Source: Candidatus Naiadarchaeum limnaeum
GTDB lineage: Archaea > Undinarchaeota > Undinarchaeia > Undinarchaeales > Naiadarchaeaceae
Direction: 5' to 3'
Assembly (NCBI GenBank): GCA_014189685.1
Contig: DVAB01000046.1
Coordinates: forward strand, 1-9,058
Length of the DNA stretch: 9,058 bases
Part shown: one piece after another, positions 1,382 through 8,879 of the stretch
How the letters are laid out: every line of letters begins with the position of its first letter
Position numbering within the stretch: position 1 is the first letter of the stretch
The notes under the pieces: model-generated
Told to the model about the DNA's origin: nothing
The model's database searches: none
Seen by the model: only the letters and a program-made list of their open reading frames with translations
Position numbers and translations under genes: made by a program

Positions 1382-2965
1382 ATGATCTCTGATGAAGAAA
1401 CAGCCGGCCCTTTGAACTATGAAATTGTTAGCCCTGCCCCCAAAATTCAATTGCTCAGATATTTTGATAAGCCATTTGATTTCTCAATAAGCGCTGCGCG
1501 CACTTGTTATTCTCCAAGAGTAATTAATACAGAAGAGGTTACTGCTGATCAAAAACAGAGAATCGGCGGCGGCTGCTTTGAAGGTGGCCATCACACAGTT
1601 TTCCAGCATGCAACTTTTTCTTTCGGACTGGAAAATGTTTCAAGACATTTTGTCTGGAGCTTTTTGCACTCGCACCCATTTTACAACTCAGAGCAATCAA
1701 GCCAAAGATATGTGCGCTTGAACGAAATTAAGGCAACAATTCCTCAAATTGAAGGAAAAGAAAATCAAAATTTGTACAAAAAAGCAGTCACGCGCGCATG
1801 GGAAACCTATAATCAACTAACTGATTTGCTTTTGGAGGATGTTGTTAAAATTCATGAAGAAATTTTTAACAAAAAAGTTGCAGATGAAAAAGAGCGCAAA
1901 AAATTGAGCAAGAAAGCAATTGAAATTGCGCGCTATGTAACTCCGATTGCAGCTCACACTTCTATGGTGCATACAATTTCTGGATTAACTCTTTACAGAT
2001 TGCACAAAGTGATTAATACAATGCCAACTCAATGGGAGCAGCGAATTGTAATTGGAGAAATGGTAAATGCTGTCAAGAAAGCTGATCCTGACTTTTTTAT
2101 GTTTGTCCAAGATCCCGTTCCACTTGAAGAAACTCCTGAATACAAATTTTTTCAAGAGCAAACGCAAAAAACTCAGCCTAATTCTGAAAACTTTATTTCT
2201 GAATTTGACTCCCAATTAGGAAATTACCGCTCAAAACTTGTTTCTTATTTGGAAGAAGGCCCAGCTTTAATGGCAGATGCTGTCCGCGCAACAATGGGAC
2301 TAACAAAAAACCAAATGTCTGATAATGAAGCAATTGACTCTGTATTAAATCCTTCGAAAAATGTCTACTTAACAGAAGCTCTAAATGTTTCAACTCTTTC
2401 TCCTCTAATGCGTGCAATGAATCATCCCTACTTTGTTTTCAAAAAGAAATTATCGCACACTTGCGATTCCCAAAATCAAAGGCATAGAATGACCTCAGCG
2501 TCGCGGCCTGTTATGGTTTTTGTTGATACAAAAAAACCTGATTATATAACTCCCTATCAAATTACCCGAAATTCAGAGGCGCAAAAAGTTTATGATGAAT
2601 TTATGAAAGAAAATTGGGAATACAAAAATGGACTTCTTGAAAATGGGGTTCCAATTGAACATGCGCAATATGTTTTGCCGAATGCTTTAACACTTAGATT
2701 GGTTGAGAGCTCAAATTATCTAAACTTATATCACAAATGGCGCTTGCGAAGCTGTTTGGACGCGCAGAGAGAAATCTGGGAATTAACTATTGAGGAAATG
2801 GAACAGGTTGGAAAAATTTTTCCGCAGCTTTTAAAATACAGCGGCCCGGATTGCATGGTAAGATTTAAAGCCGAGGTCCGGCCATTCTGCACACAAGGAA
2901 ATCTTTGGTGCGGCCAGCCGGTGTGGGCGTGGAAAAAATTGGAGACGGAAAAGAGAGCGAATTAA
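1382..2965 (+). CDS. thyX: Double-length FAD-dependent thymidylate synthase family protein (ThyX-like)
   Basis: A 527-residue protein made of two ThyX-like halves; ordinary ThyX subunits are about 220-260 residues. ThyX makes dTMP from dUMP using methylene-tetrahydrofolate, FAD and NADPH. The N-terminal half shows AARTCYSP (38-45), HHTVFQHATFSF (70-81) and QSSQRYV (105-111), but the FAD-binding RHR triad aligns with SHP (97-99), and the position of the dUMP-activating Arg near TQWE is not Arg. The C-terminal half keeps RHRMTS (367-372), an Arg at 456 in LRSCLDAQ aligned with the catalytic Arg, and a GPxC...C...CG tail with cysteines at 491, 503 and 510, but lacks the QSxRY part. The ATG at 1382 is chosen because the open frame before it (from a TTG at 1265) overlaps both promoters and does not look coding. 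Its stop abuts the next start. A true synthase is likely, but a divergent function is possible. Confidence 0.82.
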   Translation: MISDEETAGPLNYEIVSPAPKIQLLRYFDKPFDFSISAARTCYSPRVINTEEVTADQKQRIGGGCFEGGHHTVFQHATFSFGLENVSRHFVWSFLHSHPFYNSEQSSQRYVRLNEIKATIPQIEGKENQNLYKKAVTRAWETYNQLTDLLLEDVVKIHEEIFNKKVADEKERKKLSKKAIEIARYVTPIAAHTSMVHTISGLTLYRLHKVINTMPTQWEQRIVIGEMVNAVKKADPDFFMFVQDPVPLEETPEYKFFQEQTQKTQPNSENFISEFDSQLGNYRSKLVSYLEEGPALMADAVRATMGLTKNQMSDNEAIDSVLNPSKNVYLTEALNVSTLSPLMRAMNHPYFVFKKKLSHTCDSQNQRHRMTSASRPVMVFVDTKKPDYITPYQITRNSEAQKVYDEFMKENWEYKNGLLENGVPIEHAQYVLPNALTLRLVESSNYLNLYHKWRLRSCLDAQREIWELTIEEMEQVGKIFPQLLKYSGPDCMVRFKAEVRPFCTQGNLWCGQPVWAWKKLETEKRAN

Positions 2966-3652
2966 ATGGCCCAAAAAAACCCCTCCGCCCCAAAAATAAC
3001 CCCCGAACTAAAATCCCGCGCAACCAAAATAGTCTCAATTTTAGAAAAAACCTATCCGCGCGCGAAAATTGTTCTGTGGTATAAAAATAATTTTGAGCTT
3101 TTAGTCTCTGTGATTTTGAGCGCGCAGTGCACAGACAAGCAAGTAAACAAAGTTACTGAAAAACTTTTCAAAAAATATCACACTGTGAAGGATTATGCAA
3201 CTGCAAATCAAAAAGAGTTCGAACAGGATATTCGCTCAACAGGTTTTTACCGAAACAAGACTAAAAATGTAATTGGCGCTGCGAAAATGATAATTGAAAA
3301 ATTTGGCGGAAAAGTTCCAAATACAATGGAGGAACTTTTGCAATTGCCCGGAGTTGCGCGAAAAACTGCAAATATTGTTTTAGGAAATGCTTTTGGAATT
3401 GTTGAAGGAATTGCTGTTGATACGCACATGCGCCGCGTGAATTTCCGTTTGGGATTGACAAAGCAAACAACCCCTGAAAAAATTGAGCAGGATTTAATGG
3501 CTTTGCTCCCAAAAGAAAAATGGTTTAATTATACATACTATGTAATTGAGCATGGCCGCGCTATTTGTGATGCGAAAAAACCTTTGTGTAAAGAATGCCA
3601 GTTTAATAAGCTCTGCCCAAAAAATGGAGTTGACCCTAAATTTTATAAATAA
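2966..3652 (+). CDS. nth: Endonuclease III (DNA glycosylase/AP lyase)
   Basis: A 228-residue base-excision-repair enzyme that removes oxidised pyrimidines and cuts at the abasic site. The helix-hairpin-helix LPGVARKTAN (127-136) carries the catalytic Lys133, and VDTH (151-154) holds the catalytic Asp152. The C-terminal [4Fe-4S] motif is intact: Cys201-x6-Cys208-x2-Cys211-x5-Cys217. Length is normal for the archaeal/bacterial family with a modest N-terminal extension rich in Lys and Pro. The ATG directly follows the TAA of the ThyX-like gene with no gap and no SD sequence, so translation is probably coupled and both are read from one message. The last bases contain a TATA-like box for the next gene. 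Confidence 0.95.
   Translation: MAQKNPSAPKITPELKSRATKIVSILEKTYPRAKIVLWYKNNFELLVSVILSAQCTDKQVNKVTEKLFKKYHTVKDYATANQKEFEQDIRSTGFYRNKTKNVIGAAKMIIEKFGGKVPNTMEELLQLPGVARKTANIVLGNAFGIVEGIAVDTHMRRVNFRLGLTKQTTPEKIEQDLMALLPKEKWFNYTYYVIEHGRAICDAKKPLCKECQFNKLCPKNGVDPKFYK
3640..3650 (+). promoter_or_regulatory. TATA-like box before the SDR gene
   Basis: ATTTTATAAAT at the very end of nth places a predicted transcription start near 3672, about 13 bases before the ATG at 3685. No SD sequence precedes that ATG, which fits a short-leader message. Read-through from nth is an equally open possibility because the gap is only 32 bases. Confidence 0.35.
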
Positions 3653-4767: not shown

Positions 4768-5043
4768 ATGAAAATTAGAATTGAATTTGATAAAAGCAAG
4801 TGCATAGGCGCTGGGCAGTGCAGGCTCTCTGATCCGATAGATTTTGTGTTTGACCCTGTTGATGATTTCCACACAGTCCTAAACGAAAGTGAGAAACAAG
4901 GAGATTCAAACATTTGGGTCAAGGAGCTGGAAACACCTGATCATCATATGCCAACAAACGCTGGAATTCACTGCCCGGTAAAGGCAATTCGTGTTATAAA
5001 TCTTGAAACTGGTGAGGTAAAAGCCCCGAAGGAGAGTAAGTAA
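4768..5043 (+). CDS. Small three-cysteine ferredoxin (Fer2)
   Basis: A 91-residue ferredoxin-like electron carrier. CIGAGQC (12-18) and HCPVKAI (68-74) give only three cysteines, at 12, 18 and 69. Ala15 replaces the second ligand of a classical cluster and Asp22 sits before Pro at the position often occupied by Cys. The pattern C-x5-C-x50-C-P is like that of [3Fe-4S] or ligand-exchanged ferredoxins, including those that serve cytochromes P450 in actinobacteria. The middle (23-60) is unusually acidic. The tail INLETGEV nearly repeats the TNIETGEV of the following gene, so the two probably arose by duplication. It lies 13 bases before Fer3 with no SD, indicating one transcription unit. Partner unknown; the flavoprotein at 6026 is a candidate. 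Confidence 0.8.
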   Translation: MKIRIEFDKSKCIGAGQCRLSDPIDFVFDPVDDFHTVLNESEKQGDSNIWVKELETPDHHMPTNAGIHCPVKAIRVINLETGEVKAPKESK

Positions 5044-5056
5044 ATTACTGATTAAA

Positions 5057-5341
5057 ATGGTTAGAGTTAGAATAGAATATAACAGAACCGATTGCATCGG
5101 AGCATGGGCATGTGTTAGCCTTGGTCCAAATGATTTTGCAATGAATTATGATGAATCAAAAGCAGATTTGATTGAGGGGCAAAACCCAAAGCCAGGTTTG
5201 CAGGTGAAAGAATTAGAAGTTGATGAGGAACGCTTGCAGCAAATTAAATTCGCTGCGCAGAGCTGCCCTCCGCAGGTAATAAAAATTACCAATATTGAAA
5301 CAGGTGAAGTTTTAGTGAACTGGGAAAAACCTCATAAATAG
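5057..5341 (+). CDS. Small three-cysteine ferredoxin (Fer3)
   Basis: A 94-residue paralogue of Fer2 with CIGAWAC (13-19) and SCPPQVI (69-75). Cysteines are at 13, 19 and 70 only, again C-x5-C-x50-C-P, with Ala16 at the exchanged ligand position and Gly23 instead of the third cysteine. Unlike Fer2 it has no Asp there, so a three-ligand [3Fe-4S] cluster is the simplest reading. It has a strongly acidic central part (46-60), as expected for a carrier that docks on a reductase. It is the second gene of the Fer2-Fer3 unit and is followed by the hairpin cluster at 5366. Electron transfer is confident from the fold signature; the exact cluster and partner are inferred. Confidence 0.8.
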   Translation: MVRVRIEYNRTDCIGAWACVSLGPNDFAMNYDESKADLIEGQNPKPGLQVKELEVDEERLQQIKFAAQSCPPQVIKITNIETGEVLVNWEKPHK

Positions 5342-5460: not shown

Positions 5461-6021
5461 ATGGCCTTAGAGGAATACAAGAAAAAGAGAAAATTTGACA
5501 AAACTCCTGAGCCTGCAGGCGGGGGAGAATTAAGCGAGGATTTTTGCGAGGAAATTAAAAGGACTCACAAAATCCAAACTGGTCGGCCAATTTATGTTGT
5601 TCAAGAACATCACTCTTCCCACTTACATTGGGATTTGCGTCTTGAGTTTAACGGAGTTTTAAAAAGCTGGGCTGTTCCAAAAGGAATTCCTCAGACTTTT
5701 GAGGACGGAAAAAGATTAGCCATTCAAACAGAAGACCATCCTTTGGAGTATGCTTCTTTTTCAGGAGAAATTCCTACTGGAAATTATGGAGCAGGCAGCG
5801 TAAAAATCTGGGACGCTGGAACTTTTGAGGTAATTGAAAGAACAGATAATAAAATAATTTTTAATGCGCGCGGGAAAAAAGTTAAAGGAGTTTATATTCT
5901 GCTCAAAGCAACATTTGGCGAGTTCGCTAAGTCAGGAAAGAACTGGCTTCTTTTCAGAAAGAAAGAACCTGAATCAAAACCAAAAGTTAAAAAGCCACAA
6001 AAGAAAAAGAGCAAGAAGTAA
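5461..6021 (+). CDS. Stand-alone DNA 3'-phosphoesterase (LigD PE domain)
   Basis: A 186-residue protein equal to the N-terminal 3'-phosphoesterase module of bacterial LigD, which removes 3'-phosphate or a terminal 3'-ribonucleotide so that DNA ends can be ligated. It opens with the typical ALEEYKKKRKFDKTPEP (2-18). Metal and catalytic residues are all in place: QEHHSSHLHWDLRLE (48-62) supplies His50, His56, Asp58 and Arg60, and EDHPLEY (91-97) supplies His93 and Tyr97, followed by SGEIPTGNYGAGSV (101-114). The last ~20 residues are mostly Lys, probably for DNA contact. No Ku, polymerase or ligase module is attached or nearby. Such separate PE proteins are known in archaea, including those with split end-joining systems. 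It starts four bases after a tandem-repeat leader and runs into the flavoprotein gene. Confidence 0.9.
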   Translation: MALEEYKKKRKFDKTPEPAGGGELSEDFCEEIKRTHKIQTGRPIYVVQEHHSSHLHWDLRLEFNGVLKSWAVPKGIPQTFEDGKRLAIQTEDHPLEYASFSGEIPTGNYGAGSVKIWDAGTFEVIERTDNKIIFNARGKKVKGVYILLKATFGEFAKSGKNWLLFRKKEPESKPKVKKPQKKKSKK

Positions 6022-6025
6022 ACTC

Positions 6026-6748
6026 ATGGAAGCCGACCAACCAAAACGCTTTGGAACGATTTTCACAAAAAACATTGCCATTAGTTCAAACACTAAACTT
6101 TTCAGGCTAGATTTTAAGAAAGGCGAAAGTTTTAATTTTTTAGCAGGCCAGTTTGTTATGATAGCGCGAAAAACTGAAGAAGGTAAGGAAGTAAAGCGTG
6201 CCTATTCATTTTGCTCTCCTCCCTATGAAAAAGGCTATACAGAATATTGCGTTAAAATTGTTTCAGGCGGCGCGATTTCTGAGTGGTTCGACAAACTTCC
6301 TCTAAATACAGAAGTTGAAATAATTGGTCCATATGGAAAATTTGTTGTAACCGATTTCAGCAAGGATATTCTAATGATCGCAGCTGGAACTGGAATAGCT
6401 CCTTTCAGAGGCATGATAAAACAATTATTGCATGACGGATTTAATAAAAAAATTCATCTGTTGTATGGATTTCATTCAGAGCATGATTATTTGTTTAGAA
6501 AAGAAATTGAACAATTGGCTGCCATGCACAAAAATTTAATTGTGCGGCCAACAGCGAGTATTCCAGAAAATCCTTCAGCTTGGAAATTTGATACCGGAAG
6601 GGTAATTTCCATAGTTCCAAAATATATTAAGGACACAAACTTTAGCACTTTTGTCTGCGGTCCGCCTCCGATGGTAAAGGATACTGTTAATGAATTAAAA
6701 AATATTGGATTTAATGAAAAAGGAATCCATTTAGATGTTTGGGGATAA
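6026..6748 (+). CDS. FAD/NAD(P)-binding oxidoreductase (ferredoxin reductase-like)
   Basis: A 240-residue flavoprotein with only the two core modules of the ferredoxin-NADP reductase superfamily. FAD-binding residues lie in RAYSFCSPP (58-66) and GPYGKF (101-106); the nicotinamide nucleotide is bound by AAGTGIAPF (119-127) and CGPPPMV (211-217), and the protein ends in a short tail typical of the family (HLDVWG). There is no attached 2Fe-2S or other Fe-S domain, so it must pass electrons to a separate carrier. Fer2 and Fer3, 0.7-1.3 kb upstream, are obvious candidates (inference). The ATG at 6026 is chosen; the open frame extends upstream inside the phosphoesterase gene but that part is a Lys/Arg-rich out-of-frame reading. 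It sits 4 bases after the phosphoesterase stop and touches the next gene. Confidence 0.88.
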   Translation: MEADQPKRFGTIFTKNIAISSNTKLFRLDFKKGESFNFLAGQFVMIARKTEEGKEVKRAYSFCSPPYEKGYTEYCVKIVSGGAISEWFDKLPLNTEVEIIGPYGKFVVTDFSKDILMIAAGTGIAPFRGMIKQLLHDGFNKKIHLLYGFHSEHDYLFRKEIEQLAAMHKNLIVRPTASIPENPSAWKFDTGRVISIVPKYIKDTNFSTFVCGPPPMVKDTVNELKNIGFNEKGIHLDVWG

Positions 6749-8282: not shown

Positions 8283-8879
8283 ATGACTTTCAAAGAAAGC
8301 GGTTTAAATATAGAAACCCTATTGTGCTTGTTAAGAGATGGTGCTTCACAGACTGATATTTCTAATGGACTAAATATTTACAAAGGGAATCTAGCTAAAC
8401 TTAGTTCGAGAGTCCTATCCCTAATATATCCTTATGCAGGAACTATACTCTCGTATCTAGTTTTAGAAGAAAAATTATCGAAAAGAAAAGCACAGCAGCT
8501 GCTTAGCCGAAATAAAATAGATCCAAACTCAAAACTTTGGAAACTTTTTATAATCGCAAAAGGTATAGCGCACGAAAAATATTATCTTTGCACTCCTGAC
8601 GATATTGGAGATATTGCTTTTAGGGAAGATGCATACTTCAGAGCAGTGCTTGCTTTTGTAGAAGGTGGAACTCTTGAAGAACTATCTAGAAATTATCATT
8701 TTAATAAAGGTTTTTTGTATAGATTTATTAAAAGAACTGATAATATTGGAAAAATGTTACAAAAAGCCATGTACGATCCTGAGCTTATTAGAGCTGTCCT
8801 TCAAAGCAGAAATATTTCTCCAGAACAGAGAATAGTTCGTTTACGGCGAGATAGTGGCTTTTATTACAAACTTCAGTAA
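8283..8879 (+). CDS. Unrecognised protein with repeated helix-turn-helix-like units
   Basis: A 198-residue protein I cannot assign to a named family. It contains repeated units of about 30 residues. Residues 13-43 align without gaps to 121-151: DGASQTDIS against EGGTLEELS, followed by YKGNL against NKGFL, and both end in Arg. A third, weaker copy is at about 170-198 (RAVL start, SGFYYKL end), and 58-92 may be a degenerate one. The unit pattern, hydrophobics then G-x5-[IL]-S then K-G-x-L, resembles a homeodomain-like helix-turn-helix, so sequence-specific DNA binding is a reasonable guess. No enzyme motif, signal peptide or membrane span is visible. It has its own promoter and overlaps the opposite-strand peroxiredoxin gene tail to tail by 7 bases. 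Confidence 0.6.
   Translation: MTFKESGLNIETLLCLLRDGASQTDISNGLNIYKGNLAKLSSRVLSLIYPYAGTILSYLVLEEKLSKRKAQQLLSRNKIDPNSKLWKLFIIAKGIAHEKYYLCTPDDIGDIAFREDAYFRAVLAFVEGGTLEELSRNYHFNKGFLYRFIKRTDNIGKMLQKAMYDPELIRAVLQSRNISPEQRIVRLRRDSGFYYKLQ

Follow-up and report, generated by a model that had tools for sequence, protein, structure and literature searches.

The ThyX protein encoded by the archaeon Candidatus Naiadarchaeum limnaeum was found to consist of two fused ThyX domains, between which the dUMP-contacting residues of the enzyme are divided, and the same division was found to be conserved among tandem ThyX proteins of archaea, bacteria, and phages. We consider it about 85% probable that the protein is a functional flavin-dependent thymidylate synthase working as a fused pseudo-heterodimer, a model for which we infer assembly, site count, and catalysis. 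If the composite-site model is true, an enzyme essential for DNA-precursor synthesis in many archaea and in some bacteria and phages has two specialised halves and half as many active sites as its ancestor had. Tandem ThyX would then clearly exemplify how a duplicated and fused gene undergoes reciprocal loss on the two sides of an interface, and would provide a natural, separable system for testing each side of the ThyX site; in the homotetrameric enzyme every mutation strikes both sides, which makes side-by-side dissection hard. The significance reaches beyond a single gene, in that the split is shared by many tandem ThyX proteins forming a large class.

Gene and Domain Architecture

The window is the whole of contig DVAB01000046.1 (9,058 nt) of assembly GCA_014189685.1, a 98% complete genome whose 52 contigs total 983,883 b. 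The ThyX gene (Table 1) encodes 527 residues from its ATG, and an in-frame TTG at 1265 offers an alternative start that would give 566 residues. The preliminary description had read two ThyX-like halves in the product, and profile searches bore this out. Two PF02511 domains scored above the cut-off in the genome search (108 and 103 bits), the protein sequence itself gave 209 bits over two stretches, above the curated cut-off, and the TIGR02170 thyX model was passed with 128.9 bits against a cut-off of 87.9.

AF2 modeling of the N-terminal half (N-half) alone gave a pLDDT of 82 and a pTM of 0.75, and the model matched Mycobacterium tuberculosis (Mtb) ThyX, 3hzg, over 223 residues with a VIA-align Z of 19.7, the next unrelated fold having a Z of about 5. 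The whole-chain model was of moderate confidence only (pLDDT 62, pTM 0.63); its residues 282–513, in the C-terminal half (C-half), matched Mtb ThyX over 200 residues with a Z of 13.2. The underlying alignments consisted of the window protein and viral-collection loci, to which the C-half fragment from genome G001 (L124) was added for the whole chain. These models show ThyX-like folds for both halves.

Table 1. Features of the tandem ThyX gene and its downstream neighbor in the window (Tm, Thermotoga maritima numbering)
Feature	Position	Strand	Basis or comment
Tandem ThyX, two fused Thy1 domains	1382..2965	+	ORF list, profile matches
N-half ThyX domain, aa 1-268, SxRY/Arg147 side	1382..2185	+	AF2 model and structure match
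GHHTVFQH, aa 69-76	1586..1609	+	Thr72 aligns with Mtb Ser71, FAD contact of a third subunit
Arg88	1643..1645	+	aligns with Mtb Arg87, dUMP contact of subunit C
SHP, aa 97-99, at RHR position	1670..1678	+	alignment; T. roseum has HHP there
Ser107-Gln-Arg109-Tyr110	1700..1711	+	aligns with Mtb Ser105/Arg107/Tyr108, Tm Ser88/Arg90/Tyr91
Arg184 (in IARYV), Tm Arg147 position	1931..1933	+	R in 68/68 N-halves
C-half ThyX domain, aa 269-527, RHR/Arg174 side	2186..2962	+	AF2 whole-chain model and structure match
Gln366-Arg367-His368-Arg369, RHR FAD-binding motif, Tm 78-80	2477..2488	+	family alignment
Val377-Met-Val379 at Ser88-x-Arg90 position	2510..2518	+	family alignment
Gln429 at Arg147 position	2666..2668	+	family alignment
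Arg456 = Mtb Arg199/Tm Arg174, dUMP-activating Arg	2747..2749	+	R in 68/68 C-halves; ungapped alignment to Mtb 199
Endonuclease III (nth)	2966..3652	+	ORF and profile match

Partition of the Active-Site Residues

Ordinary ThyX is a homotetramer with four active sites, and three subunits contribute to each. Arg147 of T. maritima ThyX is, presumably, as in its UniProt annotation, a contact on the subunit-C side. In Mtb ThyX, dUMP is bound by Arg95 and Arg199 from subunit A and by Arg87, Ser105, and Arg107 from subunit C, whose Tyr108 forms a lid on the nucleotide, while FAD is held by the RHR motif (95–97) of subunit A, Ser71 and Arg190 of subunit B, and the Gln103 backbone of subunit C (PMC6514825). 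A comparable division is seen in PBCV-1 ThyX, in which monomer A contributes Gln75 and Arg182 and monomer B contributes Ser88/Gln89 (PMC3498832). The S88A, R90A, and Y91A mutants of T. maritima ThyX showed slower consumption of the methylene intermediate (PMC8316439).

Residue equivalence between the window ThyX and the Mtb enzyme was established by phmmer alignment, which paired (window/Mtb) Thr72/71, Arg88/87, Ser107/105, Arg109/107, and Tyr110/108 in the N-half, and Gln429/172, Leu447/190, and Arg456/199 in the C-half. The motifs read in the preliminary description were all recovered. The N-half keeps the HxxVFxH and QSxQRY elements, as HHTVFQH (aa 70–76) and QSSQRY (aa 105–110); it carries SHP in place of RHR, and the equivalent of the dUMP-activating Arg174 is absent. 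The C-half keeps RHRxxS, within QRHRMTS (aa 366–372), a glutamine at the Gln75 position (Gln364), and Arg456 in the context LRSCLDAQREI, corresponding to LRxxxxAQxEI; its SxRY position reads SASRPVMV, so that the QSxRY element is gone.

The partition was found to extend to two further positions: Arg147, which the N-half keeps as Arg184 and the C-half replaces with Gln429, and the arginine ahead of the motif, where the N-half has Arg88 and the C-half His359. The single chain thus contains every dUMP-contact residue reported for Mtb ThyX, split between its halves: every listed subunit-C residue is present in the N-half and absent from the C-half, and both subunit-A arginines are present in the C-half and absent from the N-half. 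Since the dUMP site is built from an A-side set and a neighbor's set, the N- and C-halves complement each other, each retaining one side of a single site. The earlier suggestion that complementary halves could build a composite site is supported by the match between the retained residues and the published assignment of contacts to subunits.

A contiguous RHR-x7-S motif occurs within one domain in neither half, and the window ThyX was therefore filed as a variant rather than as a canonical member. The FAD contact Mtb Arg190 (Tm Arg165) is aligned with leucine in both halves; its equivalent is also lost in the Thermomicrobium roseum relative described below and, apparently, from both halves of certain phage tandems, which suggests that Arg190 may not be needed.

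A Proposed Class of Split-Site Tandem ThyX

Among 394 archaeal genomes searched with profiles and family members, a Thy1 match was identified in 225, about a third of which (75) encode a full tandem ThyX. The 91 full tandem proteins comprised those of the 75 archaeal genomes (one with two), 10 from plasmid or phage records, 4 from viral contigs, and that of T. roseum. The same partition and order, with SxR opposed to an RHR-type motif plus Arg174, was found in 91/91 full tandem proteins from archaea, bacteria, and phages, which share kinship and so are not 91 independent trials. The split partition was found in 0/42 archaeal single-domain ThyX proteins, all of which keep both sets (three failed the Arg174 regular expression only, and were intact by eye).

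In the 68 tandems that were aligned, Ser88, Arg90, and Arg147 are each present in 68/68 N-halves, with no RHR and no arginine in the aligned Arg174 column. Their C-halves keep Arg78 and Arg174 in 68/68, His79 in 61, and Arg80 in 66; Ser88 plus Arg90 occurs in none, and an arginine in the aligned Arg147 column in one. A further 22 tandems, whose motif print-outs and sequences were inspected visually, and the T. roseum protein agree, with SxR in the N-half and an RHR-type motif plus Arg174 in the C-half. The G212/G139b pair has an arginine aligned with Arg147 in the C-half as well, so that Arg147 is not cleanly split in that pair. Some short tandem types have RQR, RND, or RHD where RHR is expected; five short tandems of 419–450 aa (L142, L143, L144, L145, and L146), with RND or RHD in the C-half, retain the Arg174 equivalent and the N-half SxRY. 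The archaeal genome G139 encodes two tandem ThyX proteins of different types, L117 and L140 (573 and 601 aa).

Residue Thr/Ser55, the equivalent of Mtb Ser71 of subunit B, was present in 24/28 N-halves and about 4/28 C-halves sampled, the C-half alignment being uncertain, which tentatively suggests that in most tandem types both N-halves would serve each site. In the G206 and G212/G139b types, the C-half retains the GHxS element.

We propose split-site tandem ThyX as a class, defined by two Thy1 domains, SxR in the N-half only, and an RHR-type motif plus Arg174 in the C-half only; this arrangement was found in the window ThyX and in 90 further full tandems. Database records name tandem ThyX like ordinary ThyX, no solved tandem structure turned up in the PDB, and no description of a tandem ThyX with complementary halves was found in open full text (subscription journals lying mostly outside the search), so the split partition is provisionally regarded as new to the literature. 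The long ORFs of G032, G166, and G221 were set aside as possible inteins; in G032, a single ThyX (L017) has its frame lengthened to 553 aa by an insertion, probably an intein, that follows shortly behind the SQRY motif.

Relatives and Comparable Systems

The closest relative is a 201-aa fragment at a contig end in genome G001, from the same order as the window archaeon, which covers the C-half only and is 64–66% identical. T. roseum WP_012643046.1 (557 aa) is 40% identical over its full length and shares the domain order and residue partition; it differs in being bacterial, borne on the megaplasmid NC_011961.1, and annotated only as FAD-dependent thymidylate synthase. It has HHP for SHP and retains VSQRY, RHR, and the Arg456 equivalent. 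Such a full-length relative makes gene transfer between bacteria and the window archaeal lineage likely, in one direction or the other. A contig search of the genome collection with the window and G001 proteins matched G001 itself only, and viral contigs searched with the window and G220 proteins yielded no relative.

The main type of tandem ThyX occurs in many archaea, Bacillus/Paenibacillus, Actinomycetota, Parabacteroides, and the phages Ma-LMM01, Tunturi_5, and BONAISHI. It has the same partition and half order as the window ThyX, at 17–22% identity, but differs at the N-half RHR site (typically NRL or SRI, versus SHP) and at the Gln75 position (usually Asp, 56/68, versus Gln). Ordinary ThyX (PF02511, TIGR02170; T. 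maritima TM0449, M. tuberculosis 3GWC) shares the fold, the dUMP/FAD residue set, and the inter-subunit site, whereas the window chain has two domains with the full motif in neither, and for every four domains two sites are predicted where the ordinary enzyme has four. A parallel is known in the herpesvirus dUTPase, of unrelated fold and trimeric ancestry, in which a duplicated and fused gene yields one composite active site per doubled chain. The ThyX of Chlamydia trachomatis, probably about twice the usual length, may be a tandem ThyX that has already been assayed. The assay of the C. trachomatis enzyme has been published (PMC3498832).

Origins of the Fusion

Trees of the halves, built without the motif columns, placed the main-type C-halves in one clade (100/100), the C-halves of the window, G001, and T. 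roseum proteins in another (100/100), and the window and T. roseum N-halves together (100/99), while the two halves of the G212/G139b type group with each other (99/90). AU tests did not reject a single clade for all C-halves or all N-halves (p = 0.16 and 0.09; second set, 0.21 and 0.40), and an independent origin is therefore not claimed; one ancient fusion fits these trees. A placement of the window halves among single-domain proteins in a quick tree was dropped, that tree having missed better ones. It is rather unlikely, if conceivable, that tandem ThyX had several independent origins, all of which converged on one split and one order of halves; fusion would then be a route by which a homo-oligomer can repeatedly become a hetero-oligomer. 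The G206 and G212/G139b types are the candidates for separate origins.

Proposed Mechanism and Alternatives

Duplication and fusion probably brought two ThyX folds into one chain. With the A side of a composite site coming from one fold and the C side from a second, each half would be free to lose the side that its partner supplies. The C-half would have specialised as the "A" subunit, its RHR gripping FAD and Arg456 activating dUMP. The role of the "C" subunit would have passed to the N-half, whose Ser107, Arg109, Tyr110, Arg88, and Arg184 would bind dUMP and assist methylene transfer; the FAD contact of the third subunit may likewise be supplied by an N-half, as Thr72 suggests. Two chains would, most likely, assemble into a pseudo-tetramer with two composite sites rather than four, the other two being dead, as both sets of lost residues would fall there.

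The protein may instead have left thymidylate synthesis, acting as another flavin enzyme or methylating another nucleotide, with dTMP coming from elsewhere. This is improbable, although the loss of the Arg190 contact from both halves would suit it, and there are precedents: PolB, a UMP/dUMP methylase (4p5a/4p5b), is a ThyX-fold enzyme with another role, and the Corynebacterium glutamicum homologue is dispensable for thymidylate according to the title of 3ge9, so that the fold alone is no proof of activity. Against it, the Mtb dUMP-contact residues are all kept, and a search for thyA (PF00303), proposed in the preliminary description, found none recognisable in the 98% complete genome; thymidine kinase was likewise not found there, yet thymidylate kinase and serine hydroxymethyltransferase (SHMT) are both encoded. 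With neither thyA nor thymidine kinase in a genome of this completeness, the tandem ThyX is probably the sole dTMP source of the archaeon.

Canonical motifs missing from both halves, and an identity of about 30% to single-domain proteins, could also reflect a tandem duplicate whose halves are losing function at random. The preliminary description had allowed for a decayed copy with intact relatives, but no tandem with two full sets was found and decay was rejected on the family alignment; the kept and lost residues are identical in all tandems, the reading frame is open, and G001 and T. roseum conserve every kept motif residue within their coverage. Decay is thus the least credible of the alternatives. 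Hardly more credible is an arrangement in which a single half carries out catalysis together with an unrelated partner, its sister half having only a structural or regulatory role; each half does fold as a complete ThyX domain in the models, but a complete dUMP site is present in neither half alone, and the PF02511 search of the window genome found one Thy1 locus, the tandem ThyX itself. Given this incompleteness of each half and the near invariance of the two retained sets, both halves look catalytic.

Neighboring Genes

The first base of nth directly follows the ThyX stop codon. The two genes are likely cotranscribed, with nth lying outside the split-site mechanism, and the pair may place a dTMP synthase beside a base-excision enzyme in one operon. 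Elsewhere in the window, a 198-aa protein (8283–8879, +) had no NCBIfam match and a sub-threshold Pfam match to DSHCT (20.2 bits), and a lone DNA ligase D 3′-phosphoesterase domain (LigD_PE_dom, 162 bits) is encoded at 5461–6021 (+), no ligase or polymerase domain being present in that ORF. Two small single-cluster ferredoxin-like genes in tandem, followed by an FAD/NAD-binding oxidoreductase, were also identified (4768–5341 and 5864–6748, +); the oxidoreductase ORF as listed overlaps the phosphoesterase gene, so that a later ATG is likely its true start.
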